Of a stretch of DNA of 50,845 nucleotides, positions 35,637 to 49,507 are shown one piece after another. Each line of letters opens with the position of its first letter. Within the stretch, counting starts at the first letter, position 1. The position numbers and the translations under genes were made by a program. The notes beneath the pieces are model-generated. The model worked only from the letters and a program-made list of their open reading frames with translations, was not told the DNA's origin and did not search any database. The DNA comes from a virus. The stretch spans positions 1 to 50,845 of the IMG/VR virus record IMGVR_UViG_3300030380_006591; one strand, given 5' to 3'.

Positions 35637-35809
35637 TATTCAGTTTCAAAAACTTGAGTCTTTACAGTTGGTGGGTTTATTACTACAACTTCACCATTTT
35701 CAACTTCCAAGTTCCAGTCAGCTAACATCTCTGTTATATCTGTTTGTTCTGCCAAACACTTTTGAAGTGTCATCAATAGTGCTCCTACAGCTTGATTTGA
35801 AAACTTCAT
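35636..35809 (-). CDS. Small conserved phage protein, 57 aa
   Basis: A short frame that fills what would otherwise be a 170-base gap. It begins MKFSNQAVGALLMTLQKCLA, continues with QTDITEMLADWNLEVEN, and ends VVVINPPTVKTQVFETE. A good AGGAG ribosome binding site lies 6-7 bases before the ATG at 35807-35809. Its start overlaps the stop of the SIS-HAD gene and its stop overlaps the start of the zinc-ribbon gene, both in TAATG arrangements, typical of translational coupling. I recall a similar small protein with an LMMTLQKC-like helix next to the same cassette in marine T4-like phages. Function unknown. Confidence 0.8.
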   Translation of the reverse strand: MKFSNQAVGALLMTLQKCLAEQTDITEMLADWNLEVENGEVVVINPPTVKTQVFETE

Positions 35810-36801
35810 TATTCTTCTCCTTTCATATTGTTAACCTGAGTGATGACATTATCCCAGCCGCCTGTAAATGGAACCGCTTTATCGTCAATATAGGCAAAAG
35901 CTCTTGGTTTTTCAGCAGTAACCTTTGACACATATTGTGCCATATCATGCTTTTTAAGCCATTCCCAGACTAGTTCAGAACCAGTTCTTCCATTTACCAA
36001 GCCTCGATCTGGTTTTGCTTTACAGGTATAAACAATGACTGTATGATCTCTAGATAGTTTTTGTAGTGCCTCCTTAGCACCCTCAACTGGATCATCGTAG
36101 ATTGTGCCGTCGTGATATCCCTTTGAACACTTATGGATTACCCCATCAAAATCAATACCAATATTTACCTGTTCATCTGGATAACTATGTTTTCTGACAC
36201 TTGGACCTTTCCAATTGATTTTTTCTAAATCGTCAGGAGAGTTTTTGCCGATTGGAGGACACTCCTTTCCTGAACCGTGAGTTAATTGATATTGCAATAA
36301 CAAAGTTAAAACTTCTGCTGTGTGGTAATACTCGGCTCCAAGGACTACTTGAGCTAATCCTTTAATTTCTTCTTCAATAGGATTAGACGTCACCAAAGCT
36401 GTCCTTAGTCCATTATCCGAAGCCCATTGAAGTGCTTTGATTACATCTTTTGATTTCCCAGACGAAGAGATCCCATATACTAGAGACTTTTTCATTTGAG
36501 ATTTAGTTTTAGTACAAGTTCTTTGTTGCAACCAAGCAACCATCCATTGATCAAAACTTGTATCGTTGATCAAGGAAGTTGCTACTACACAACTCCCAGG
36601 ACACATAGCGTTCTTTGTCCCATTGGATAGTCTTGTCATATCTACAGCGGTGTGATCAGCAACACCCATGTTTCCACCGTGCCCAAGAACATAAATGTCA
36701 TCACATTCATTATAATATTCTTGTAGCTGTCTCCACTCTTTTGAGCTTATAGTTTCGTAAAATTTGCTCTCTAGATTTTCAATGTCAAGTGCTGAACTCA
36801 T
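35809..36801 (-). CDS. Fusion: GmhA-like SIS sugar-phosphate isomerase + HAD phosphatase, 330 aa
   Basis: Residues ~15-190 form a SIS domain like GmhA (sedoheptulose-7-phosphate isomerase): LGHGGNMGVADHTAVDMTR (about 39-57) matches the GNGGS phosphate loop, and GISSSGKSKDVIKALQWA (about 109-126) the S/T-x-S/T-G-x-S motif. Residues ~213-330 form a small HAD hydrolase: IGIDFDGVI with nucleophile Asp and general-acid Asp, VIVYTCKA, and AYIDDKA. HAD proteins of this type dephosphorylate sugar phosphates. Isomerase and phosphatase are successive functions in heptose-nucleotide pathways, usually as separate GmhA and GmhB. It starts at an ATG with AGGGA and closes the glycan cluster. Substrates are inferred; 'phosphosugar isomerase, unspecified' is a safe reading. 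Confidence 0.85.
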   Translation of the reverse strand: MSSALDIENLESKFYETISSKEWRQLQEYYNECDDIYVLGHGGNMGVADHTAVDMTRLSNGTKNAMCPGSCVVATSLINDTSFDQWMVAWLQQRTCTKTKSQMKKSLVYGISSSGKSKDVIKALQWASDNGLRTALVTSNPIEEEIKGLAQVVLGAEYYHTAEVLTLLLQYQLTHGSGKECPPIGKNSPDDLEKINWKGPSVRKHSYPDEQVNIGIDFDGVIHKCSKGYHDGTIYDDPVEGAKEALQKLSRDHTVIVYTCKAKPDRGLVNGRTGSELVWEWLKKHDMAQYVSKVTAEKPRAFAYIDDKAVPFTGGWDNVITQVNNMKGEE

Positions 36802-37480
36802 TTATCCCTAGCTCCTTATAAAATTCTAAAAGTCCGGTTGTGTCCATCCCTAATGCTATAATACCATAATCTGAATATTTCTTTAGATATTTTTTAACTT
36901 CTGTTGGAATATGGACTGCCATCTTTTCTTTTGGTATTAATTTTTCCATTTTCTTAATTGCATCTAGATACAAGTTTGAACTAAAATCTCCTGGCACTCC
37001 AAGACTAGCGGACAAGTCATAAGGTCCGATCATATAATAGTCAAAATTATAACTCATTATCTCCTCTAAATTATTTACGCCATCAATAGTTTCAATCTGA
37101 GCTACAATAGAAGGTGGTTCTGATACTAAAGGTAATAATCCCCATTTATTAGCCCTAGTTAAACCAAGCCCTCTGCGTCCGCCGTGTTTTGGGAATTTGC
37201 AAGAGTTCATTATCTTGTTACACTGCCGTGCATTTTCAACGGTAGAGAAAATTAAACCTGTTGCTCCTGCATCCAAACACATCCTAATACTTGATTTGGT
37301 CGGAACCATCAATCTAACAAAACATTTCCTATTTAATGAAGTTATAGTCTGAATACAATTATAGATTGTTTCATTGTTGTAGGATGCGTGCTCTGTATCT
37401 ATAACAACACCATCAACACCAGTGTGGCATAAAAGTTCTGATACAACTGGTGATGGTATTTGTTGCCAAGCTAATTTCAT
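36785..37480 (-). CDS. HpcH/HpaI-family aldolase, 231 aa
   Basis: Class II pyruvate aldolase family, which joins or splits 2-keto-3-deoxy acids using a divalent metal. The signature residues are present: VIDTEH (Asp28, Glu30, His31), Arg56 in FVRLMVP, metal ligands Glu130 (AQIE) and Asp155 (GPYDLSASLG). I chose the ATG at 37478-37480; the longer frame begins at TTG 37501 inside the methyltransferase gene and adds seven residues. AGGA lies about 12 bases upstream. The gene ends 17 bases inside the SIS-HAD gene. In this context it may make an ulosonic-type sugar acid from pyruvate and a sugar aldehyde; a catabolic role seems less likely. Confidence 0.87.
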   Translation of the reverse strand: MKLAWQQIPSPVVSELLCHTGVDGVVIDTEHASYNNETIYNCIQTITSLNRKCFVRLMVPTKSSIRMCLDAGATGLIFSTVENARQCNKIMNSCKFPKHGGRRGLGLTRANKWGLLPLVSEPPSIVAQIETIDGVNNLEEIMSYNFDYYMIGPYDLSASLGVPGDFSSNLYLDAIKKMEKLIPKEKMAVHIPTEVKKYLKKYSDYGIIALGMDTTGLLEFYKELGINEFST

Positions 37481-37484
37481 TGTA

Positions 37485-38180
37485 TTATACTTTCCTGACA
37501 AATGCGCTCGGTGCGATATAATTTAGGTTTTCTACTTGTACGTTTTTGTCTTTAAAAAATTTGTCTACACCTTGCGATTCTGACCAGTGATGAAAAGCAT
37601 ATTCATCGAACACTACAATACCACCCTTAGACACCCTATCCCAAGCAGCCTCAAGAACGTCGTATGTTGGTTGTGCTAGATCAAGATCCAAATAGAGAAG
37701 AGATATTTTTAACCCAGGCTTATTTGAAATATATTCTGGCATTGTTTTAGAAATATCACCTGCAATTAACTCATAGTCGTAATCTTGAAATCCTGCCTCT
37801 TGAATAACATTTTCAAGATAATTTTGATAGTTATGATCGTGACTAAAGTTTCTTTTTTCAAAGAGTGTGGACATTGCTAATTTGTCTTGTGATGATAAAC
37901 TATCAATTAGACTATCTGTATCAAAAAAATCAAATCCTAAAACTTTCTTTCCAGAATTTGGATTAAGGTATTTTTTTAATTTAAGAAAAGTTAAAATACC
38001 TGTTCCCTTAAAAACACCACATTCAACAATATCGCCAGGAATATCTTTAACCTTGTTCATTAGAAGTGTTCGAGCTAAAAGCTTCCCAAACACTTTTGTG
38101 TCATCACTCAATATAAACCCGTTAAAACTGTCAAAAAGAGATTGACTAGTTTTTATTATTTCTAAATCTTTTATTTCCAT
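37485..38180 (-). CDS. TylF/MycF-type O-methyltransferase, 231 aa
   Basis: SAM-dependent methyltransferase of the macrocin O-methyltransferase (TylF) family, which methylates sugar hydroxyls. Motif I appears as GDIVECGVFKGTG (about 49-61), the later core as LLYLDLDLAQPTYDVLEAAW (about 171-190) with the metal/catalytic acidic residues, followed by KGGIVVFDEYAFHHW. It is complete in length. Its start overlaps the stop of the GDPD-like gene (TAATG) and no good Shine-Dalgarno is visible, so translation is probably coupled. It likely decorates a phage-made or phage-modified sugar. Confidence 0.85.
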   Translation of the reverse strand: MEIKDLEIIKTSQSLFDSFNGFILSDDTKVFGKLLARTLLMNKVKDIPGDIVECGVFKGTGILTFLKLKKYLNPNSGKKVLGFDFFDTDSLIDSLSSQDKLAMSTLFEKRNFSHDHNYQNYLENVIQEAGFQDYDYELIAGDISKTMPEYISNKPGLKISLLYLDLDLAQPTYDVLEAAWDRVSKGGIVVFDEYAFHHWSESQGVDKFFKDKNVQVENLNYIAPSAFVRKV

Positions 38181-38609: not shown

Positions 38610-39983
38610 TCAACCCTTATAATTTCTCAAATAAGTGTCTAAATCTTCTGGTGTTCCTATGCCCCACATTTTTTTAGCTGGGAAGATTTTTATCTTTTTA
38701 TCGTCTCCAATGGCCTCATTGAATACGGGACAAACATAGAATTCATTGTTAACCCTAATATCCTTTTCGATCATCTGTTCGGCATACTTAACATAGTCAG
38801 AACCCTGTTTCCAGTAATAAATCCCAGTAGTCGCAATGTTGCTAATTGGTTTCTTTTCTGCCACTTCTGCTACATACCCATCAGGACCTAACTTGGCAAA
38901 ACTCCACTTTGGGTGAGTAGCTTCAAAAGTTAACATACCACCATCGATATTATCTGCCATCATAGAATACATAAACTCATTACTATCCCACTCTAGAAAC
39001 TGGTCTGAATTTGCATAGAGCAAAGGTTCATCATTATTAATGAATTCTTTTGCTAACAGTGTTGTACAAGCAGCACCCTCTGTTAGTCCATCTGTATAAA
39101 TAACCTCACACCCTGGAGAGATCAATTGTAAAAGATGTTTTATGTTGTATCTTTCTTCATGTTCCTTGCGGACCACAAAAATATGCTGCGCATCTATATT
39201 CAAGTTTTCAACAACAAGTTGAATCATTGGCTTTCCGTTAACTTCAATTAAAGGTTTTGGAAAAGCGTAGCCAGCCTTTTGAAAGCGAGAACCTTCGCCA
39301 GCCATTGGAATAAGAACCTTCATATCTCCTCCTTGCCATTTTGGTCTAGACAAAGTTCTAGGACGATTCTTTTCAATAAATCCAAAAACCTTTTCTTTTG
39401 TTACATCTTCACTATTCATTACACCGCATACGTGAGCCCCAGCACGCTGTGCTGCTTCACGTCCAATATGTGAATCTTCAATTATTACAGTTTCTTGAGG
39501 TCCGACTTCCGCCTTCACCATACATTTAAGATAAATTTCTGGATTTGGCTTAGGGTTTCTTACATCCTGATTAGAGTAGAAAAAATCAACATACTCCATA
39601 AATCCTTTGCGCAACAAAACCATCTTTATGGTTTCTCTGATAGAATTTGAAGCAACCGCAATTTTAAGACCCTCTTGTTTAAGGTCTCTCAATAAATTAC
39701 AGATTCTTTCGTCTCGACCATATTCATTTGATATTATATTGATTGTATGTTTTTGTTTGTTTTTCCATACAGAATGGTGACTCTCCAGAGGGAGCCCCTT
39801 CATCTCTGTAAGCATCTTTAATTTCTTACTGGTTGGTAGTCCATCGAATGTTGATAGGTGTTCTTCTCTTTCAACAATATACTTTGGATCTACCTCTTTT
39901 AGAGAGCGGTTTAGAGCTTCATAGTGAAGTTCCCTAGCATCTACTAATACGCCATCCAAGTCAAAAACTACTAATTTAATCAC
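38610..39983 (-). CDS. Fusion: HAD phosphatase/phosphomutase + sugar nucleotidyltransferase, 457 aa
   Basis: Residues 1-215 are a HAD hydrolase of the beta-phosphoglucomutase/phosphatase type: VFDLDGVLVDA (nucleophile Asp8, acid Asp10), VASNS, and KPNPEIYL with VIIEDSHIG. Residues 221-457 are a nucleotidyltransferase: MKVLIPMAGEGSRF, FPKPLIEVNGKPM, ANSDQF and the late WGIGTPEDLD, which couples sugar-1-phosphate to an NTP. The start is GTG at 39983, overlapping the GT2 stop by 4 bases. An internal in-frame ATG at 39323 has a strong AAGGAGG site, so a separate 237-residue nucleotidyltransferase is probably also made. Base and sugar specificity are unknown; GDP-heptose (HddC-like) or UTP use are possible. 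Confidence 0.87.
   Translation of the reverse strand: MIKLVVFDLDGVLVDARELHYEALNRSLKEVDPKYIVEREEHLSTFDGLPTSKKLKMLTEMKGLPLESHHSVWKNKQKHTINIISNEYGRDERICNLLRDLKQEGLKIAVASNSIRETIKMVLLRKGFMEYVDFFYSNQDVRNPKPNPEIYLKCMVKAEVGPQETVIIEDSHIGREAAQRAGAHVCGVMNSEDVTKEKVFGFIEKNRPRTLSRPKWQGGDMKVLIPMAGEGSRFQKAGYAFPKPLIEVNGKPMIQLVVENLNIDAQHIFVVRKEHEERYNIKHLLQLISPGCEVIYTDGLTEGAACTTLLAKEFINNDEPLLYANSDQFLEWDSNEFMYSMMADNIDGGMLTFEATHPKWSFAKLGPDGYVAEVAEKKPISNIATTGIYYWKQGSDYVKYAEQMIEKDIRVNNEFYVCPVFNEAIGDDKKIKIFPAKKMWGIGTPEDLDTYLRNYKG
39321..39334 (-). promoter_or_regulatory. Internal ribosome binding site and start for the nucleotidyltransferase half
   Basis: On the minus strand AAGGAGGAGATATG: the Shine-Dalgarno core GGAGG (39328-39332) lies 4 bases before the in-frame ATG (39321-39323), exactly at the border between the HAD and nucleotidyltransferase domains. 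It is stronger than the initiation region of the full-length frame. Confidence 0.65.
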
Positions 39984-40909
39984 TTCCTAAACCTTTCATT
40001 ATCTTTAAATGGGTGCTTGTCAATATCTTCACATTTGTTGAGGTCAAGCCAAAAATCACCCTCTCTCCAGCCAACATAGTTTTGTTCCTCAAGTGTTTCA
40101 ACATCTTTTTCAAAATAATAATATTGTACGAAGTTCGGAACTGTTGGTAGATTTGGTGGGTTATCAACAAAATCTTGAGACCATCTCGTTAACCACCCAG
40201 TATAAGCGGGCTGTGTTTTCCAGGTGTCTTTCCATTTCCAATACAAAATTTGTGATGTATGATACCAACCTTCTCTCGATATATTATTCGATTTCTCTTT
40301 TCTCCACTCAGGTTCACCACCTTGATATTCTGATGTATCTAGTGGTAGTGCATCTTGACTGTTTAATAGTCTGCCATGGATCCTATCATTTATTAAGGAC
40401 TTTTCTTTGTTTAAAATTAGAGCCCTAATATAATAGTCAGCTTCTTTATTTGCTGGTGTTATAAAACGCTCATCCCATAATCCTATTCTTTTTACCGCTT
40501 CTGGTCTATAGCTAATAATATTATCGCCCAATTGCCCTGTAATAAAAGTGTATTTCTTGTGCATCTTTAAAAGATTTGTTGCCCACTTTGGATCTAATAC
40601 AATATCGTTCTGCATTGTCACAACAATTTTTGCCTCCGGGTTATTCAAATCTTTAAACCCATGCACAAGTGCTTGATTCCAGTTTCTTGCTAAGTTACCT
40701 GTATCCCAATCAGGTCTGGCGTTGTTGTGAATTACATTTACCTTGTTTCGAAATCTTTCCTCTAGAAAAAAATCACTGTGATTGTTGATAACATTTACTT
40801 CTGTATCAGAAACAAGCGAAAAATCTGTCTTATTAAATAAGGTATCCAAGGTTTTGTTTAGTATATCTTGCCTTCTATACGTTACAATATAAATCTTGAT
40901 ATTTTTCAT
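39980..40909 (-). CDS. GT2-like (GT-A fold) glycosyltransferase, 309 aa
   Basis: The N-terminus KIYIVTYRRQDILNKTLDTL is the standard family-2 start. NVINNHSD follows at the nucleotide-sugar position, and MQNDIVLDPKW (about 99-109) supplies the DxD-like metal site in the form N-D-x-V. The second half contains the acceptor-side region (GLWDERFITPANKEADYYI), typical of GT2 enzymes, and ends in a Trp/Tyr-rich tail. It starts at ATG 40909, overlapping the cytidylyltransferase stop by 4 bases. No membrane segment is seen, so it is probably cytoplasmic. Donor and acceptor unknown; a protein- or virion-glycosylating enzyme is possible. Confidence 0.82.
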   Translation of the reverse strand: MKNIKIYIVTYRRQDILNKTLDTLFNKTDFSLVSDTEVNVINNHSDFFLEERFRNKVNVIHNNARPDWDTGNLARNWNQALVHGFKDLNNPEAKIVVTMQNDIVLDPKWATNLLKMHKKYTFITGQLGDNIISYRPEAVKRIGLWDERFITPANKEADYYIRALILNKEKSLINDRIHGRLLNSQDALPLDTSEYQGGEPEWRKEKSNNISREGWYHTSQILYWKWKDTWKTQPAYTGWLTRWSQDFVDNPPNLPTVPNFVQYYYFEKDVETLEEQNYVGWREGDFWLDLNKCEDIDKHPFKDNERFRK

Positions 40910-41571
40910 TTTCTGTTTACCTTATCAAACAAAGCCTCAGCAACCATGAAATCAAACTCAGTATCAACATCTACTGATTCTATATCATCCAACATAAGCG
41001 GATAAAATTTATTCCCAAGAATATTTTTATTTTGTATCATTAATTCTCTGGGCAATATGTTTGCCGCAAAATTCAAAGCATACACATCAGGCAAGTCCTG
41101 AGATCTTGGATGATTTTTAGGATCATAATTCATAGCTGCATTATCAAGCCACAGATATTCTCTAATATAATTGGCTGTGACCACTGAATCATACTCTTCT
41201 ATCTCTTTGTATAAGTCAATACACTCTTGAACTGACTCATCTTTTATAAGTGGACTCGTTACTGGTGTCCATAATATATCCTTACAATCTAAAGAGGAAG
41301 CTAAGTGAACATATACATCCCCCATAGGAACTGTATCACTAGCATAAAATGGGTCTCTTCTCATAGTAGTTGCACCAAGAGAGTTTGCCAACTCTAACAT
41401 ACCCTCATCATCAGATGTTACAACTATGTTATTAATACCACTTAATCTTGTTGCTTGTTCTATTTTCATTTGGAGCATGTTGGAACTTCCGAATGGTCTT
41501 ATATTTTTTCCTGGTACACGTTTAGATCCACCTCTTACTGCAATTAAGACAGTAATATCAGTATCTCTCAT
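40906..41571 (-). CDS. CMP-sialic-acid-synthetase-like cytidylyltransferase (NeuA/PtmB type)
   Basis: Predicted to activate an ulosonic acid (sialic, legionaminic, pseudaminic or Kdo-like) with CTP. The family signature VRGGSKRVPGKNIRPFG is at residues 12-28; VVTSDDEGMLELANSLGA and later TPVTSPLIKDESV and the C-terminal DDIESVDVDTEFDF (metal-binding Asp cluster) complete the pattern. Length 221 aa is normal. A GGAGG ribosome binding site precedes the ATG. It overlaps the SDR gene, an arrangement reminiscent of ptmA-ptmB in Campylobacter legionaminic acid synthesis. No NeuB-type synthase is present in the window, so the sugar acid must come from the host, from genes outside, or from the HpcH/HpaI aldolase. 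Confidence 0.88.
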   Translation of the reverse strand: MRDTDITVLIAVRGGSKRVPGKNIRPFGSSNMLQMKIEQATRLSGINNIVVTSDDEGMLELANSLGATTMRRDPFYASDTVPMGDVYVHLASSLDCKDILWTPVTSPLIKDESVQECIDLYKEIEEYDSVVTANYIREYLWLDNAAMNYDPKNHPRSQDLPDVYALNFAANILPRELMIQNKNILGNKFYPLMLDDIESVDVDTEFDFMVAEALFDKVNRK

Positions 41572-42281
41572 AGCTGACCTCCGTTTACATCAATTGCTGC
41601 TCCTGCAATATATGAAGCAGCCGAAGAACATAAAAACAATATTGGTAAAGCCTGTTCTTTTGTAGTTGCAATTCTTCTAACAGGTATACTATGTTCTAAT
41701 TTTTCTATTTGCTCTGTAGTCATAGATTCTTGCAACATCTCTGTCATTGTCTGTGAGGGACAAACACAATTCACAAGAATATTGTGTTTTGAGACTTCAT
41801 TCGACAACTGCTTAGTCAAGCCAATTATGCCATATTTACTAGACGTATAATGAACACCACTTACAATACTTTTATTTCTTCCTGCGATTGATGAAACATT
41901 TACAATCCTGCCAAAGTTTTTTTGTTTCATTATCTGAACTGCTAATTTAGAAGTATAATAAAATGATTTAAGATTAGTGCTCATCACTCTATCCCATTCA
42001 TCACTATCAATATCTTCTATAGGACAACACAAGTTGGTTCCAGCAACATTGATTAAAAAATCTAGTGTTTTAATTGAATCAAAAGCTAGTTTTATACTTA
42101 ATTGATTTCTTAAATTACACCCTATATGATGACAACCATCTATCTTCGGATCTGTTCGTGATAAACAATAGACAACTGCGCCCGAATCTATAAATCTTTT
42201 AACAACCTCAAGTCCAATACCTTTACTTCCACCTGTAACTACAACTGTCTTGCCTGTGAAATCAAAAAATATATCAATCAT
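41568..42281 (-). CDS. Short-chain dehydrogenase/reductase (SDR), 237 aa
   Basis: Classical SDR. Using the ATG at 42281, TGGSKGIG (NAD(P) binding) is at residues 16-23, NVAG near 79-82, a catalytic Ser in NVSSIAG, and the Tyr-Lys pair in YTSSK (about 145-149). The C-terminus has the usual SSAASYIAGAAIDVNGG. Upstream in-frame ATGs at 42287 and 42302 exist; the 42281 start was chosen because it gives the normal SDR N-terminus and overlaps the cupin's stop. It precedes the cytidylyltransferase with a 4-base overlap, so it probably oxidises or reduces a precursor of the CMP-activated sugar. Confidence 0.88.
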   Translation of the reverse strand: MIDIFFDFTGKTVVVTGGSKGIGLEVVKRFIDSGAVVYCLSRTDPKIDGCHHIGCNLRNQLSIKLAFDSIKTLDFLINVAGTNLCCPIEDIDSDEWDRVMSTNLKSFYYTSKLAVQIMKQKNFGRIVNVSSIAGRNKSIVSGVHYTSSKYGIIGLTKQLSNEVSKHNILVNCVCPSQTMTEMLQESMTTEQIEKLEHSIPVRRIATTKEQALPILFLCSSAASYIAGAAIDVNGGQL

Positions 42282-42699
42282 CTTCATATACGTGATCCAC
42301 ATCCGGCCTGGTTATCGCATACCTTACCCCTGGTTTATCTCCCACACACTTTATGTGATGCCAGACGCCGCAAGGAACTACAATAATATCATTCGTAGTA
42401 ACAGTCCTTGTTCCTATGCCGTCTATCCACCACTCCCAAGTTCCATCTAAAATAACCCAGTTCTCATCGGCGTCATGATGATAATGTTTTCTATTGCCTT
42501 CGCCAGGTTGTTGTTGTATAACAACTCCTCCAAAGAGTTCATTATAAGCAATTCGTACAGCCCAAGACCCCATGCCAAGATCTTTTCTTAATTCTTCTAA
42601 ATTTACAGTAGAACAATTTTCATACTTAACCAATTCTGAGACTGGAACTCCGTCATCTTCTAAAACTCTATTTAAATTTGAATCTGATTTTCTGGTCAT
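42274..42699 (-). CDS. Cupin-domain protein, 141 aa
   Basis: Single-domain cupin with a complete metal motif: His72, His74 and Glu79 in HYHHDADENWVILDG, Gly86, and His114 in the second motif (VPCGVWHHIKCVG). Small cupins of this kind in sugar clusters include epimerases, isomerases and sugar-binding regulators; the specific reaction cannot be assigned. The N-terminal ~45 residues are an extra charged extension. Start ATG overlaps the stop of the sialyltransferase-like gene (TAATG). Confidence 0.82.
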   Translation of the reverse strand: MTRKSDSNLNRVLEDDGVPVSELVKYENCSTVNLEELRKDLGMGSWAVRIAYNELFGGVVIQQQPGEGNRKHYHHDADENWVILDGTWEWWIDGIGTRTVTTNDIIVVPCGVWHHIKCVGDKPGVRYAITRPDVDHVYEDD

Positions 42700-44642
42700 T
42701 ATCTGGTGTCCTTTTTAAATTTTGGCAAATTTGAAAACCTATTAATCCTATCACAAACTGTTTTAGAATTTAATTTTTCCACAACAATTGGGTCAAAAAA
42801 CAGCCTTGGATCCCTCATAAGGACATTTTTACAATGCATCATCTGAGAAACCTGGTCATGAAGTAACTTGTCTGGACCCAAAGGGGTCCCTTCTGAACCA
42901 TATGTTTTTATATATTCCGAATTATACTTCTCTTCATTTGTTTGAGGTAGTCCCGTATTATAAAAATCCATTCCATATACACGTAATTCCTTCAGAGAGT
43001 ATCTTAAAAGAAAATTAATAGATCCATAACCAGAGTTGAAATTGGCTGTAAACGTCGTATAATTTCCAGTAGAAAATCTTTCAAGATGCTGCTTCGCATA
43101 AACTTGCCAATAAAGCCCCCAGCGATCCCAAGTCCCATCGCTTCTTTTAAGATTCACAAGAGGAATATTTAATTCTTGAAAAATATTACCATACACTTCA
43201 TCCGTAAAGAACCATCCTTTTTTCCACTCAAGCCCGCCAACAGCCACCTCATTATTGTTTGGTGCTGAAACTGAGTCGTTACAAATAATGAATTTTGGTC
43301 TATCTTTTGGTGATAAGCTTTTTATATGGCTTACAAGTGGGTTGCCGTAATTAGGATTCAAGCAACTTTGTATTATGTCTGAGCGTTTTCCAAAGTCTTG
43401 CTCCGAATATATGTTGTGCTGAATTCTAACAACCACGTCGCAAGAATCTATTTCTTGTCCTCTGCCTTGACCTCTTAAATATGGAGAAGGCCCCACTAAA
43501 GCAACTGTCTTGTCTTTTAAAAATTTCTCCAAGTCACTATCCATAACAGAATTCCTGTGAAAGACTGATTCATTGTCCTCCAGGTTTTGATATATACGGA
43601 GGCACTCATTTATTGAGATTTTTTTATCACTCAATCTTTCGTTGACATCTTTCACAATACCAGGCCACGGGTCTAGCGGGGTAACAAAATCATCAAATTT
43701 TAACTCTCGTAGGCAAGACTTTACCACCTCGATGGATTCCTTGCTGATGGGTTTAAATTTTTCCGCCAATGATAGATTGCAGTTTAAAAACTGATCGTGA
43801 TTTAAGTCAAAGAATTTTGATATTTTTTGCTCATCATAATAATCTACATCGTATGAGTTTTTTATAACCTCAAAATTCTTTTGCCGAAACAACGAAACAA
43901 AAAACTCTTTGATACTCAATGAATTGTAATTCAGGTTATAATCTACATCTTTTATCTGTAGTAAGCCTCTTTTCTTAAACGCTGGAAGTATATCCTTAAA
44001 CATTTGATTCATCTTGTATGTTGTATAGGCTCCATCGCTATTGTATATTTGGTCTGCTGTGCTGTCATTAGGTGTATTATGATGAACCATTTTGTGACTA
44101 CAAACAACATTTCTTAAAAAAGGTATTTCCTGAATGTTGAACATATGACAGGCATCAGTGTCTGTGCGATATTTTGTATATAAGGGAAAGAACCATTTCA
44201 TTAAACTTTTGTGAACAATTTTAATGCCATTATGAGTAAATGGTATACAAGAATAATCTCTGCTAGTTAAGAAATTTTGATCCTGTACTAAAGGGCTATC
44301 AATTCCTGTACCCGGATAATAAGTTAAAACGGCTGGATTTAGTTCCAAATCTTCTAATATTTGCTCATAGGGATCTAAGTTAAACCTTGGCTCAAGAACA
44401 AGATCATGATCAAGAAACATATAATAATCATATTTCTTAGGAACAAGCTCTGCCATGATATTTCTTGTCTCAGACCAGACAGTGCCAGGGCAAAACTTTA
44501 GAGACTTTTGATTTTCTTTTTCGTAGGTAACAAAATAAAGGTCTGACTGTTCTCTATCTTCAAACAACTTACAATGAACAGCATTTGGCTCACTAGGAGT
44601 CACCTGTAAAATACAAAAACGTTTATTTTTGCTTTTCCCCAC
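42699..44642 (-). CDS. Two-domain glycosyltransferase: GT-A domain + GT29-like sialyltransferase domain, about 647 aa
   Basis: The N-terminal ~230 residues look like a GT-A transferase with a DxD motif (YMFLDHDLVLEP). The C-terminal ~270 residues resemble GT29 sialyltransferases: a sialylmotif-L-like VALVGPSPYLRGQGRGQEID with SCDVVVRIQ, a KRSDIIQSCL segment, a sialylmotif-S-like NSGYGSINFLLRYSLKELRV followed by YGMDF, and a His near the end (HDQVSQ) where the family's VS motif His lies. A central linker of ~130 residues joins them. The frame can be extended to TTG 44669; I prefer GTG 44640-44642, after the preceding gene's stop with AGGGA upstream. A bifunctional glycan-building enzyme using a CMP-sugar fits the cytidylyltransferase nearby. 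Confidence 0.75.
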   Translation of the reverse strand: MGKSKNKRFCILQVTPSEPNAVHCKLFEDREQSDLYFVTYEKENQKSLKFCPGTVWSETRNIMAELVPKKYDYYMFLDHDLVLEPRFNLDPYEQILEDLELNPAVLTYYPGTGIDSPLVQDQNFLTSRDYSCIPFTHNGIKIVHKSLMKWFFPLYTKYRTDTDACHMFNIQEIPFLRNVVCSHKMVHHNTPNDSTADQIYNSDGAYTTYKMNQMFKDILPAFKKRGLLQIKDVDYNLNYNSLSIKEFFVSLFRQKNFEVIKNSYDVDYYDEQKISKFFDLNHDQFLNCNLSLAEKFKPISKESIEVVKSCLRELKFDDFVTPLDPWPGIVKDVNERLSDKKISINECLRIYQNLEDNESVFHRNSVMDSDLEKFLKDKTVALVGPSPYLRGQGRGQEIDSCDVVVRIQHNIYSEQDFGKRSDIIQSCLNPNYGNPLVSHIKSLSPKDRPKFIICNDSVSAPNNNEVAVGGLEWKKGWFFTDEVYGNIFQELNIPLVNLKRSDGTWDRWGLYWQVYAKQHLERFSTGNYTTFTANFNSGYGSINFLLRYSLKELRVYGMDFYNTGLPQTNEEKYNSEYIKTYGSEGTPLGPDKLLHDQVSQMMHCKNVLMRDPRLFFDPIVVEKLNSKTVCDRINRFSNLPKFKKDTR

Positions 44643-44643
44643 C

Positions 44644-45615
44644 CTAGAGTTCCCTATCCCATCGATCAATCATTTCTTCCAGCATTGATTCAAATGTATA
44701 TTCAGGTTTCCAGCCCAAGATTTCCTGTGCTTTAGATGGATCACCTTTTAAATATTTGAGTTCCTCTGGTCTCATAAATTTTGGATTTTGTATTACATAA
44801 TCTTCGTAATTTAATCCTATTTTTTCAAAAACAATTCTACACAAATCCCTAACAGAATGCGTTTCGCCAGTAGCAACAATAAACTCATCTGCAACTGAAT
44901 GGTTTATGATTTGATGCATTGCTCTAACATAATCTTTTGAGTGTCCCCAATCTCTGTATGAATCCATATTACCTAGTTCAAGGTTTTGTTGTAAGCCTTT
45001 CTTAATTGAAACAGCACCTTTTACCACCTTGTTTGTTACAAAGTTCGAACCACGGCGTGGAGACTCGTGATTAAATAGAATACCATTACAAGCATGAAGG
45101 TTATAAGCATTTCTATAGTGTCGAACTAAATTATAACCCATCACCTTAGCGCACCCATAAGGACTGACCGGGTTCATTGGAGTGGTCAGCCGTTGCACAC
45201 CATCTTCATCTACTGAATTTCCAAACATCTCTGATGATGATGCTTGGTAAAATTTAGCGTTCGGAACTGTATTTCTATAAATCTCCAACATATGAAGAAC
45301 ACCAAGGGCGTTAGTTTTGATCGTAAAAGATGGCATATCAAAACTAATACGAACGTGACTCATAGCACCCAAATTATAAATTTCATCAGGCTGAATCTCT
45401 GACATTAACCTCTGTAAGGAAGGATAATCTAAAAGATCGCCATAGTGAGTATTAATTTTATCACTAACATCACTCTGCCCCAGACGATAATTTTGATTTT
45501 CAGCTACTGAGTGTCTTCTTACTACTCCGTGGACTTCGTATCCTTTTTCTAATAACAACTCAGCTAAATAACTGCCGTCTTGACCATTCAATCCCGTAAT
45601 AAATGCTTTCTTCAT
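44644..45615 (-). CDS. gmd: GDP-mannose 4,6-dehydratase family protein, 323 aa
   Basis: Extended SDR that converts GDP-mannose to GDP-4-keto-6-deoxymannose. GLNGQDGSYLAELL (about 8-21) is the NAD(P) motif of this family, ASSSEMFG holds the catalytic Ser/Glu, YGCAK holds Tyr153 and Lys157, and NHESPRRGSNFVTNKV (182-197) is diagnostic for Gmd-type enzymes. Length is close to bacterial Gmd, though slightly short. A GDP-heptose 4,6-dehydratase (DmhA/WcbK type) is a close relative and cannot be excluded, given the GmhA-like SIS domain in the same cluster. Its start overlaps the stop of the mini-DegT gene by 4 bases. Confidence 0.92.
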   Translation of the reverse strand: MKKAFITGLNGQDGSYLAELLLEKGYEVHGVVRRHSVAENQNYRLGQSDVSDKINTHYGDLLDYPSLQRLMSEIQPDEIYNLGAMSHVRISFDMPSFTIKTNALGVLHMLEIYRNTVPNAKFYQASSSEMFGNSVDEDGVQRLTTPMNPVSPYGCAKVMGYNLVRHYRNAYNLHACNGILFNHESPRRGSNFVTNKVVKGAVSIKKGLQQNLELGNMDSYRDWGHSKDYVRAMHQIINHSVADEFIVATGETHSVRDLCRIVFEKIGLNYEDYVIQNPKFMRPEELKYLKGDPSKAQEILGWKPEYTFESMLEEMIDRWDREL

Positions 45616-46208
45616 TTAAAAATCTCCATCTTAGTTAAGTCAGGCCAGTCGTTCAAACTCCAAGATTTAGGCTTTTTTTCAATAGCCTCTGGTAGTTTTT
45701 TTAATCCAAGCGCTGCTGTCTCTGGTGTCATATAATAATGGTACCCCATCACATTAATATTTTGAGTTCCCCAAGGTATATGAGGCTCCCTTCCATCATA
45801 CGACATTTTCTTTAAATGTTTAGCTGCCTCCTCGTTATCCGTTAAAATAATACCACCTCTTCCTAGACTTAAGTGTTTTTTGAATTGAAAACTTACACAC
45901 ATAAATGTTCCGGGAACATAACTATCTTTTTCCCATAGGACAGCAGCATCTACCACTTTATCAGTCAGGTAGTAAAATTTTTTCCACTCACAATCTTTCC
46001 ATTCTAGATCAATATTTAACTTGTTTGATAGAAAAGGCACTGAAATATAAGTGTGATGGGGTACTGAAATCTTATTTGCGTTAGTGTATATTAGACACAA
46101 CTCTAAAGCGTGTGTACAACAGTCAACCGCTACCGCATATTTAGAACCAAAAAAATTACTTATATTGTTCTCGAACTCTTCAACAATATGAAAATCCCAC
46201 TTACTCAA
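45612..46208 (-). CDS. Compact DegT/DnrJ/EryC1/StrS aminotransferase, 198 aa
   Basis: PLP-dependent sugar aminotransferase family, but about half the normal length (370-400). The recognisable core is present: FENNISNFFGSKYAVAVDCC (typical substrate/PLP entry region), SVPHHTYISV, an Asp in DKVVDAAVLW for the PLP pyridine, the internal aldimine Lys111 in SFQFKKHLSLGRGG, and MTPETAALGLKKL. The sequence ends ~25 residues later, so the C-terminal domain is absent and the middle appears shortened. The start is TTG, supported by AGGAG ~7 bases upstream. With Gmd it could form a GDP-perosamine-type aminosugar, but activity of so small a protein is unproven. Confidence 0.8.
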   Translation of the reverse strand: MSKWDFHIVEEFENNISNFFGSKYAVAVDCCTHALELCLIYTNANKISVPHHTYISVPFLSNKLNIDLEWKDCEWKKFYYLTDKVVDAAVLWEKDSYVPGTFMCVSFQFKKHLSLGRGGIILTDNEEAAKHLKKMSYDGREPHIPWGTQNINVMGYHYYMTPETAALGLKKLPEAIEKKPKSWSLNDWPDLTKMEIFK

Positions 46209-47597: not shown

Positions 47598-48818
47598 CTA
47601 TTTGTAAAAACTTATATATTCTATATTAGGATTAATTTCTCTGATCTTATTTTTTATAGGCTCTGATAAATTCCAAGATAATATTAGTCCACAGACTTTA
47701 TCAACTGTTGCAAAAACTTCGTCACCACATATTTCTATATCTGATAGTGGTGTTGTTTTGCCCTGTTTATACTTTGAAGTATCTGTTACAAAATCAATCA
47801 ACGAATTGTTTAAATTCAAAAAGTTTAACAACGTATTTCCTTTTGCGGCTGCTCCAATTGCGATTATATTATACCCTTTTTTCTTGTATCTTATAATTTT
47901 AGATACAAAATCTATCTTCCTCTTTAATAAATGTTTATTTAAAACTTCATAGGTCTTTTTTTCAAATAAGTAAGACTCTTTTTTGATTTGTTTTGTTATA
48001 TCTTTATAATGTGAAATTTTTTCGTTTAGGTTCTTTTTTGCAATTACACGCAAGGAACCACCGTGATAATCAACAACTTCAATATTTACTATTTCAAATT
48101 TACACTTTTCCAATAAGTTCTTCAAGGAAGTGATCGTATAATATGTGACGTGTTCATGGTATATTTGATCTATTTTTTTTGAATCTATTGTTGATTTCCA
48201 ATAAGGAACTTCAAAAACATAGTGACCACCGTTTTTCAGTAGTGTATTTACACCCATAGTAAAAGATATAGGGTCATCTGAATGATTATATACATTATTT
48301 GCTATAACTAAGTCGGATGGTCCTACTTTTTCAACTATCCTATCAGACTCCTCTTGGTTAAAAACACAGTTTTCAGTAAATATGCCAGCCTCATTGGCAA
48401 TATCACACATAGCCCTTGATGCATCAATTCCATATACTTTATTGTTTAATTTATTCTTAAACTGACTGAGAAGATAGCCATCATTGGATCCAATTTCATA
48501 TATTATTGACTCTTTACTTAACGATAATTTGTGACTAATTAACTCACAATATTCTTCCCAGTGACTTCTAGATGTTAAAGAATTTGACGATGTATAAGAG
48601 TAATCAAAAAGATTATATCTCTCAGTAGCATCAGTCGCTGCCTCAGTTTGAATTAATTTACACTCCTCACACATAACACAAGAAAGGTTATATACAGGCA
48701 ATGGCATAGACTTGTGTTTTTTATCAATAAAAGTATCTGCATAAGGATGCATACCAAGATCAATTATCTTAGTTAGTTTTGTGGATCTACAAGTTAAGCA
48801 AGTTTTTCTTCTAGTCAT
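47598..48818 (-). CDS. Sugar C-methyltransferase (NovU/TylCIII type, three modules), 406 aa
   Basis: Three-part deoxysugar C-methyltransferase. The N-terminus is a zinc-binding module with Cys7, Cys10 and Cys47, Cys50, Cys53 (CxxC and CxxCxxC). The middle holds the SAM fold (IIYEIGSNDGYLL, about 104-116; LVIANNVYNHSDDP; YVFEVPYW) and the IYHEHVTYYT active-site stretch. The C-terminal module (about 300-406) has the IGAAAKGNTLLNFL pattern of the family's last domain. Such enzymes methylate carbon 3 of 4-keto-deoxysugars, giving branched sugars. Its start overlaps the GT42-like gene by 4 bases. An AT-rich, T-tract-rich coding sequence marks the cluster. Confidence 0.88.
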   Translation of the reverse strand: MTRRKTCLTCRSTKLTKIIDLGMHPYADTFIDKKHKSMPLPVYNLSCVMCEECKLIQTEAATDATERYNLFDYSYTSSNSLTSRSHWEEYCELISHKLSLSKESIIYEIGSNDGYLLSQFKNKLNNKVYGIDASRAMCDIANEAGIFTENCVFNQEESDRIVEKVGPSDLVIANNVYNHSDDPISFTMGVNTLLKNGGHYVFEVPYWKSTIDSKKIDQIYHEHVTYYTITSLKNLLEKCKFEIVNIEVVDYHGGSLRVIAKKNLNEKISHYKDITKQIKKESYLFEKKTYEVLNKHLLKRKIDFVSKIIRYKKKGYNIIAIGAAAKGNTLLNFLNLNNSLIDFVTDTSKYKQGKTTPLSDIEICGDEVFATVDKVCGLILSWNLSEPIKNKIREINPNIEYISFYK

Positions 48819-49507
48819 TTTAAAGCATCCTGTAATGAAATCTTTCTAAAACATTTTAAGTTTGATATAGGGCTACAGTTTATCACTTCTATATCAGCGT
48901 GTGCAGCCCTATACGCAAACATATTCCAAGTTGGCATATGAAATTTAATACCATCAGGAATATTATATTGATCACCTTTTTGTTGATAGTCATCAAACCA
49001 ATAGTTCGGGTTCTTATCTGGTGTTTTATCCATAATCAGTCCGGGTCCGTCTTTTTTACTGCCGTCAACAAATTCAACATAGTTACAGTCTACACCCAAA
49101 AGGATAATTTTTTTATACCCCATACAAACAGCCGCCGAACAAGCGTTAGCACCACTATTACCATTATCGTGAAACTGAGTAAAACAATCTTCTGAATGGT
49201 TCATCTTGTTGGTGCTACCATACGGTAGCATATTTACAAATTGGAAATTATCTTTGTCACTTAAGTTCCTTATATAAAAGCTCTTTTTAAATTTGCCTGA
49301 ATCGATAAGATCAATGAAGCTTTGTTGGTGATTATCTGTTACACGATAATCAAAGCAGCCGTGATAGGTAGGCCACCAGTCTAAACGAGGATAGGCTCGA
49401 TAGGCAGAATTTAATCCAAATGTGTCAATACCATCTAGCATAGAAAAATCAACATCCTTAAGGGATGGACCATTTCCCATAATAACTATCGTTTCACTCT
49501 TAGTCAT
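48815..49507 (-). CDS. GT42/DUF115-like Rossmann protein (possible sialyltransferase), 230 aa
   Basis: ETIVIMGNGPSLKDVDFSML followed by DGIDTFGLNSAYRAYP is the nucleotide-binding start shared by Campylobacter GT42 sialyltransferases (Cst-II type) and DUF115/Maf-like proteins. The GNSGANACSAAVCMGYKKI stretch with ILLGVDCNY (about residues 115-142) matches the second conserved element of the same superfamily. A late His (KFHMPTW) could be catalytic. Given the CMP-sugar synthetase and the GT29-like domain in the cluster, a CMP-ulosonic-acid transferase is attractive, but DUF115 proteins without this activity are an equal alternative. No membrane anchor is present. Confidence 0.68.
   Translation of the reverse strand: MTKSETIVIMGNGPSLKDVDFSMLDGIDTFGLNSAYRAYPRLDWWPTYHGCFDYRVTDNHQQSFIDLIDSGKFKKSFYIRNLSDKDNFQFVNMLPYGSTNKMNHSEDCFTQFHDNGNSGANACSAAVCMGYKKIILLGVDCNYVEFVDGSKKDGPGLIMDKTPDKNPNYWFDDYQQKGDQYNIPDGIKFHMPTWNMFAYRAAHADIEVINCSPISNLKCFRKISLQDALK

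Follow-up and report, generated by a model that had tools for sequence, protein, structure and literature searches.

GT29 is usually treated as a eukaryotic family of sialyltransferases, and its fold is a modified GT-A fold without a DxD motif. The locus described here raises the question of whether a phage protein contains a GT29-like domain joined to a second transferase, and what such a protein might make. The window that we analyzed is a stretch of 50,845 nucleotides that forms part of a 64,762-base IMG/VR virus record (IMGVR_UViG_3300030380_006591). Its baseplate wedge gene marks the source virus as a tailed phage, which is probably contractile-tailed. An earlier note on this DNA reported an open reading frame at 42699-44642 with a GT-A transferase fused to a GT29-like sialyltransferase domain. 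This frame exists. Position 44642 is an in-frame GTG start (647 amino acids), and a longer form of 656 amino acids runs from a TTG start at 44669. All features of this gene and its neighbors are given in window coordinates and lie on the minus strand.

Gene neighborhood

The start of the two-domain ORF (42699-44669) overlaps the upstream gene for a GDP-mannose 4,6-dehydratase-like protein (GMD; 44644-45615) by a few bases, an arrangement that is typical of operon genes. Both lie within a long minus-strand series of glycan genes. The first part of this run encodes a glycosyltransferase, a CST-I-like protein, methyltransferases, cupins, a DegT-like aminotransferase, GMD and the fused ORF. It continues with a cupin (42274-42699), an SDR oxidoreductase (41568-42302), a CMP-sugar synthetase of the CTP_transf_3 type (NeuA/PseF/KdsB-like; 40906-41571), a GT2 protein, a HAD-nucleotidyltransferase, a methyltransferase, an HpaI/HpcH-type pyruvate (2-keto-3-deoxy sugar) aldolase (36785-37501) and a SIS-HAD protein.

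Three other members of this run deserve mention. The SIS (GmhA-like) plus HAD protein at 35809-36801 and the HAD plus nucleotidyltransferase protein at 38610-39983, taken with the GMD-like gene, resemble a GDP-heptose or 6-deoxyheptose route. The DegT-like aminotransferase (45612-46208) is compact at 198 amino acids, with a segment from the interior of the Pfam model missing, and a similar size is kept in related contigs. In three relatives (L004, L006 and L032), sugar-nucleotide dehydrogenase-like and epimerase genes are found upstream of the fused gene instead of GMD, so that swapping extends to the sugar module on the upstream side.

A family of fused proteins

Full-length fused relatives, mostly 46-65% identical, occur in 17 further IMG/VR contigs recovered by scans of uncultured-virus records, a count that includes one contig identical to the window and some mutual near-duplicates. 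The two domains are separate adjacent ORFs in L010, and they are again separate adjacent genes in the same gene order in a more distant 193-kb record (G014; locus L134). Two other loci (L011 and L012) encode the N-terminal domain alone, without a GT29-like domain. The pairing, whether adjacent or fused, is therefore stable, although its parts can exist apart. Divergence between the window and L002 is 0.53-0.65 at third codon positions and 0.15-0.27 at second positions, which points to purifying selection on both halves. The linker between the domains (residues 291-365; 43575-43799) is poorly conserved, with 24-58% identity between relatives, one close pair excepted. Judged from these comparisons, it is a fast-evolving segment between two constrained domains.

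Searches of sequenced phages, plasmids and bacterial species genomes gave no relatives of the fused ORF; the genome scans relied on a small number of conserved peptides, which distant relatives would escape. The contigs of the family may themselves be fragments. A Pfam Csx12/Cas9 match (residues 233-366) is below its cut-off and falls in the linker and the C-terminal edge of the N-terminal domain. We take it to be a chance match, as we do small PHROGs matches in the same regions.

The C-terminal domain

The GT29 homology proposed for the C-terminal half (residues 366-656; 42702-43574) is borne out by profile, profile-profile and fold comparisons, which identify it as a distant but clear relative of GT29, divergent and not a close copy. 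The Pfam GT29 profile (PF00777) matches residues 385-433 with a borderline score (21.2-23.2 bits; cut-off 23). The same profile scores above its cut-off in six to seven other family records, is borderline for a split gene in G008, falls below the cut-off in G001 and finds no match in any of 14 control genomes. An hhalign comparison with small classic phage GT29 proteins spans the L to S motifs (probability 98.5, E = 3e-15). When a profile of the family is searched against all PDB sequences, each of its eight hits is a GT29 enzyme (best E = 4e-10); a search with the single ORF sequence gives chance matches only.

Structure prediction, which the earlier note had proposed as a check, leads to the same assignment. 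The AlphaFold model of the C-terminal domain, built from a deeper alignment of this domain, is confident (pLDDT 85, pTM 0.86), and GT29 folds are its best matches. At E <= 0.001 the model has 28 fold matches in the PDB, 26 of them to GT29 enzymes and two to the GT42 enzyme CstII. Foldseek TM-scores are moderate (0.33-0.48), as would be expected for a divergent GT29 member rather than a close copy. CstII is predicted to share a similar fold with this domain, but the PDB search with the family profile yields no GT42 sequence, the GT42 profile (CST-I, PF06002) does not match the fused ORF and the phage L motif is of the GT29 type.

Sialylmotifs and predicted catalytic residues

The L- and S-motif-like stretches and final histidine that had been noticed in the sequence can be assigned to specific residues. 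The PF00777 match and alignments place a sialylmotif L-like stretch, KTVALVGPSPYLRGQGRGQEIDSCDVVVRIQ, at residues 387-417 (43419-43511). Its pattern VG...L.....G..ID..D.V.R(I) is conserved in the family, with changes from GN to GP and from RIN to RIQ. The S-like stretch, NFNSGYGSINFLLRYSLKELRVYGMDF, occupies residues 543-569 (42963-43043), and hhalign aligns the family to classic GT29 members here over the pattern xxSG...LL....keL.v.G.dF. A VS-like motif, LHDQVSQ (42843-42863), contains the late histidine, H604 (42858-42860). The VS histidine is the catalytic base of known GT29 enzymes (PMC10225777), and H604 is the predicted base for this reason.

In viral relatives with 46-65% identity, these three stretches are largely invariant. 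A set of 28 divergent phage sequences shows no change at the key Gly, Ile-Asp, Asp and Arg, the S-motif Gly or the VS His, a conservation far beyond chance; H604 in particular, the residue singled out for checking, is found in 28 of 28. The VS His is also present in 14 classic phage GT29s, which retain the VS Glu as well. In all members of the fused family, this Glu of the classic HxxxxE motif is a Gln (HxxxxQ). The disulfide cysteines of the L and S motifs in vertebrate enzymes are absent from the family alignment and from the classic phage GT29s, and a clear counterpart of sialylmotif III is not seen in the alignment.

Compared with characterized GT29 sialyltransferases (PF00777; ST6Gal1, ST3Gal1, ST8SiaIII and ST6GalNAc2), the phage protein is therefore alike in its L/S core, VS His, predicted fold and CMP-sugar context. 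It differs in having HxxxxQ rather than HxxxxE, VGP..RIQ in place of VGN..RxN and no L/S cysteines, and in being encoded by a phage and fused to an N-terminal domain.

The N-terminal domain

The N-terminal domain (residues ~16-290; 43800-44624) is a plausible GT-A-type nucleotide-sugar transferase. It has a D-x-D motif (D87-H-D89; 44403-44411) that comes after a Tyr-rich strand and is invariant in 11 sequences, and it remains so when the distant G014 homologue is added. GT-A enzymes such as hyaluronan synthase and chondroitin polymerase are among the weaker fold hits of the full-length AlphaFold model, which has low confidence (pLDDT 60). The DxD and the weak fold hits make the GT-A assignment of the earlier note plausible and no more; no match of this domain to any GT family is found with Pfam, PDB-sequence or hhalign/profile searches. 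Homology to the neighboring GT2_39 or GT49 products was considered and was not seen in comparison.

The lack of a Pfam, PDB-sequence or hhalign match to any GT raises an alternative in which the C-terminal domain does transfer a sugar from CMP and the N-terminal domain serves to bind the acceptor or as a scaffold, so that the protein is monofunctional. The N-terminal part of the full-length model, which is only partly confident, is compatible with such a role. We consider this explanation rather unlikely, because it leaves unaccounted for the invariance of the DxD after its Tyr-rich strand, the several GT-A enzymes that the full-length model retrieves as weak fold hits and the occurrence of the N-terminal domain alone or as a separate gene. 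It also fits poorly with other phage GT29-like domains, which are fused to recognized GT2, GT10, GT11 and GT25 domains.

Linkage to CMP-sugar synthetases

The CMP-sugar synthetase noticed three genes downstream is indeed the third gene after the fused ORF, behind the cupin and SDR genes. A synthetase gene is present in 12 of 12 records when the fused family and its N-terminal-only relatives are counted together, and in 24 of 36 records of other phage GT29-like genes. In the larger GT29-like class, it lies within 3.1 kb in 18 of 22 records, often as the very next gene, and it occurs in 5 of 14 records of small classic phage GT29s. No CMP-sugar synthetase is found in 30 random viral contigs (drawn by random 16-mer), although the exact ratio (18/22 versus 0/30) should not be over-read, since the 22 include near-duplicates, the motifs were already known when the classes were drawn and the random contigs have a shorter average length. 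The link between GT29-like genes, including the fused ORF, and CMP-sugar synthetases is strong.

Variation within the operon connects the C-terminal domain more closely to the CMP-sugar. A swappable module lies between the fused gene and GT2. In type A, as in the window, it consists of cupin, SDR and synthetase genes; in type B (L004-L008), it consists of a synthetase fused to a homologue of the cupin, a class-III aminotransferase and a second synthetase. Clades of the C-terminal domain match the module type, with identities of 61% within type A, 75% within type B and 52% between them. The corresponding split is weak for the N-terminal domain (57/66/56) and absent or hardly visible for GMD (84/79/82), GT2 (79/79/75), HAD-NTP, DegT and the CST-I-like protein. 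By this pattern, the C-terminal domain is linked to the CMP-sugar more closely than other parts of the operon are. One exception is L019, in which a type-A-like C-terminal domain accompanies another synthetase. L011 and L012 have a synthetase without a GT29-like domain, so we dropped the idea that the enzyme serves only this domain.

The donor sugar

NeuB is found neither in the record of the window nor in 11 relatives (12 records in all), and we have rejected it as the source of the sugar in this phage. The HpaI-type aldolase, in contrast, is present in 12 of 12 family records, including the N-terminal-only L011 and L012, and is a candidate source of a ulosonic acid. Together, these observations suggest that Neu5Ac may not be the donor and that an unusual ulosonic acid may take its place; synthesis of a ulosonate without NeuB is a fair hypothesis. 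Since L011 and L012 also have the aldolase, its product may go to a different transferase, for example the CST-I-like one. Elsewhere among phage GT29-like records, NeuB scores above its cut-off in six, and an HpaI-type aldolase adjoins the synthetase in three (G012, G023 and G031). No record has both, and G014 has the cassette with neither. Among phages that have both a GT29-like gene and a CMP-sugar synthetase, aldolase and NeuB seem to be alternatives to one another. A self-contained route that bypasses NeuB, in which the aldolase would form a 2-keto-3-deoxy acid, the NeuA-like enzyme would convert this acid to a CMP-sugar and the fused GT29-like domain would attach it, is a tentative proposal to which we give limited credence.

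GT29 homology need not mean sialic acid, since one plant member of the family transfers Kdo from CMP-Kdo (PMC11288761). This enzyme, RCKT1/MGP2, uses a non-sialic ulosonate donor and is a model for the proposed phage donor (PMC11288761), although it is a eukaryotic plant Golgi protein with no phage operon context. The plant precedent bears on a narrower version of the two-step reading that fixes the donor: the protein could be a true sialyltransferase for which the phage synthetase activates Neu5Ac or another nonulosonic acid derived from the host. GT29 homology, the NeuA/PseF-like synthetase and the NeuB genes of six other phage GT29-like records would suit this version, but it is doubtful in view of NeuB in 0 of 12 family records, the HpaI-type aldolase that is present instead and the Kdo-transferring plant enzyme. 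Of the name "sialyltransferase", then, the GT29 homology holds and the sialyl donor does not follow.

A second possible user of the CMP-sugar is encoded at 48815-49507 (CSTI48). This protein is MptE-like/CST-I-like (PHROG alpha-2,3-sialyltransferase) with a weak PF06002 match, and its profile comparison with the GT29-like domain is not significant. In G014, a CST-I-like protein is fused behind GT7/GT2-like domains (L134:17938-19824).

Proposed function

We think it reasonably probable that the fused protein is a two-step glycan-building enzyme of the phage that combines GT29-like ulosonate transfer with addition of a second sugar by its N-terminal domain. From the homology and gene context described above, we infer the catalysis, the donor, the acceptor and the N-terminal activity as follows. 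The product of the synthetase three genes downstream would be the donor, a CMP-linked 3-deoxy-2-ulosonic acid that may be Kdo-like or nonulosonic-acid-like. The C-terminal domain would transfer the ulosonic acid with inversion, and H604 would act as the general base. Its N-terminal partner, probably a DxD-dependent transferase, could add a neighboring sugar, perhaps a GDP-deoxyhexose for which the adjacent GMD is a candidate pathway; this step is suggested by the DxD, the position of the domain and analogy with other phage GT fusions. A surface glycan thus probably receives an unusual acidic sugar from the fused enzyme. The two steps together would yield an acidic disaccharide unit, carried either by the virion or by LPS or capsule on the host surface; on the host, this modification could, for example, block superinfection.

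Several observations count against the two-step reading. The VS Gln, the missing L/S cysteines and the moderate TM-scores do so for the C-terminal domain, and the lack of a known family does so for the N-terminal domain, as does the low pLDDT of the full-length model. In addition, L011 and L012 have the synthetase with the N-terminal domain only, CSTI48 could use the same CMP-sugar, the G014 cassette occurs without aldolase or NeuB and the contigs are possibly fragments. A reading in which the GT29-like domain has lost its catalytic activity or has been turned to binding carbohydrate, with the CMP-sugar used by the GT42/CST-I-like CSTI48, would agree with the Gln in place of the VS Glu and with CSTI48 in nearly all loci (including two that have a synthetase without a GT29-like domain), but it is improbable given the VS His and L/S core that are invariant over 28 divergent sequences, the purifying selection and a C-terminal clade that co-varies with the CMP-sugar module when CSTI48 does not.

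GT29-like proteins in other phages

The earlier statement that GT29 has few viral members does not apply to uncultured phages. A degenerate-codon scan of viral contigs for the L motif finds 51 loci, 50 of which have GT29-like reading frames. Annotated GT29s were already present in giant viruses, a poxvirus, herpesviruses and an uncultured phage, as a viral fold search shows, and coccolithoviruses also have a GT29 (PMC5371807). Three GT29-like queries give few, weak matches in 50,697 sequenced phage records.

The scan alignment forms a gradient. At one end are small classic proteins (VGN..RIN, PSTG, HxxxxE), followed by larger forms (VGP/VCP..RIN, N(S/T)G, often HxxxxQ) and then the fused family (VGP..RIQ, NFNSGYG, HDQxSQ). 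The small classic proteins (about 190-220 amino acids; L034:6849-7511, L073 and L054) are homologous to the fused family from the L to the S motif, but they are shorter and retain HxxxxE and PSTG, and a synthetase is less regular in their records (5/14). The example at L034:6849-7511 is a second GT29 in the 157-kb virus (G008) that has the split version of the fused protein, and a search for its close relatives returned only itself.

Fusions of several transferases that end in GT29 recur in uncultured phages. As in the fused ORF, the GT29-like domain follows another domain in L051 (GT25::GT29), L068 and L080 (GT2::GT11::GT10::GT29), and L068 and L080 likewise have a CMP-sugar synthetase next door. 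Their N-terminal domains are different, and their GT29-like parts are about 23-30% identical to that of the fused ORF. A 492-amino-acid protein of an uncultured Caudovirales phage (BFVD A0A6J5NLG3, 'Glycosyl transferase family 29') is possibly another such fusion.

What is new here is that the GT29-like part belongs to a divergent branch, that the N-terminal domain fits no classified family and that the CMP-sugar module co-varies; we found no study of such cassettes in the open-access literature on phage GT29 and phage nonulosonic acid. The phage branch of GT29 is large, uncharacterized, mostly synthetase-linked and repeatedly fused to other transferases, and the findings suggest that phages decorate glycans of the host or the virion with ulosonic acids. 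Since the GT29-like domain and the CMP-sugar module are exchanged together, a comparison of type-A and type-B members offers a test of donor specificity, and the phage proteins are probably soluble candidates for GT29 biochemistry. A proteobacterial origin has been proposed for GT29 (PMC10225777), and the phage branch raises the question of whether phages helped to spread the family. The longest fusion (L080:6276-9530, minus strand) joins GT2, GT11, GT10 and GT29-like domains in one chain of 1,085 amino acids, and the GT25 fusion (L051:1-1170, minus strand) is cut by the end of its contig.
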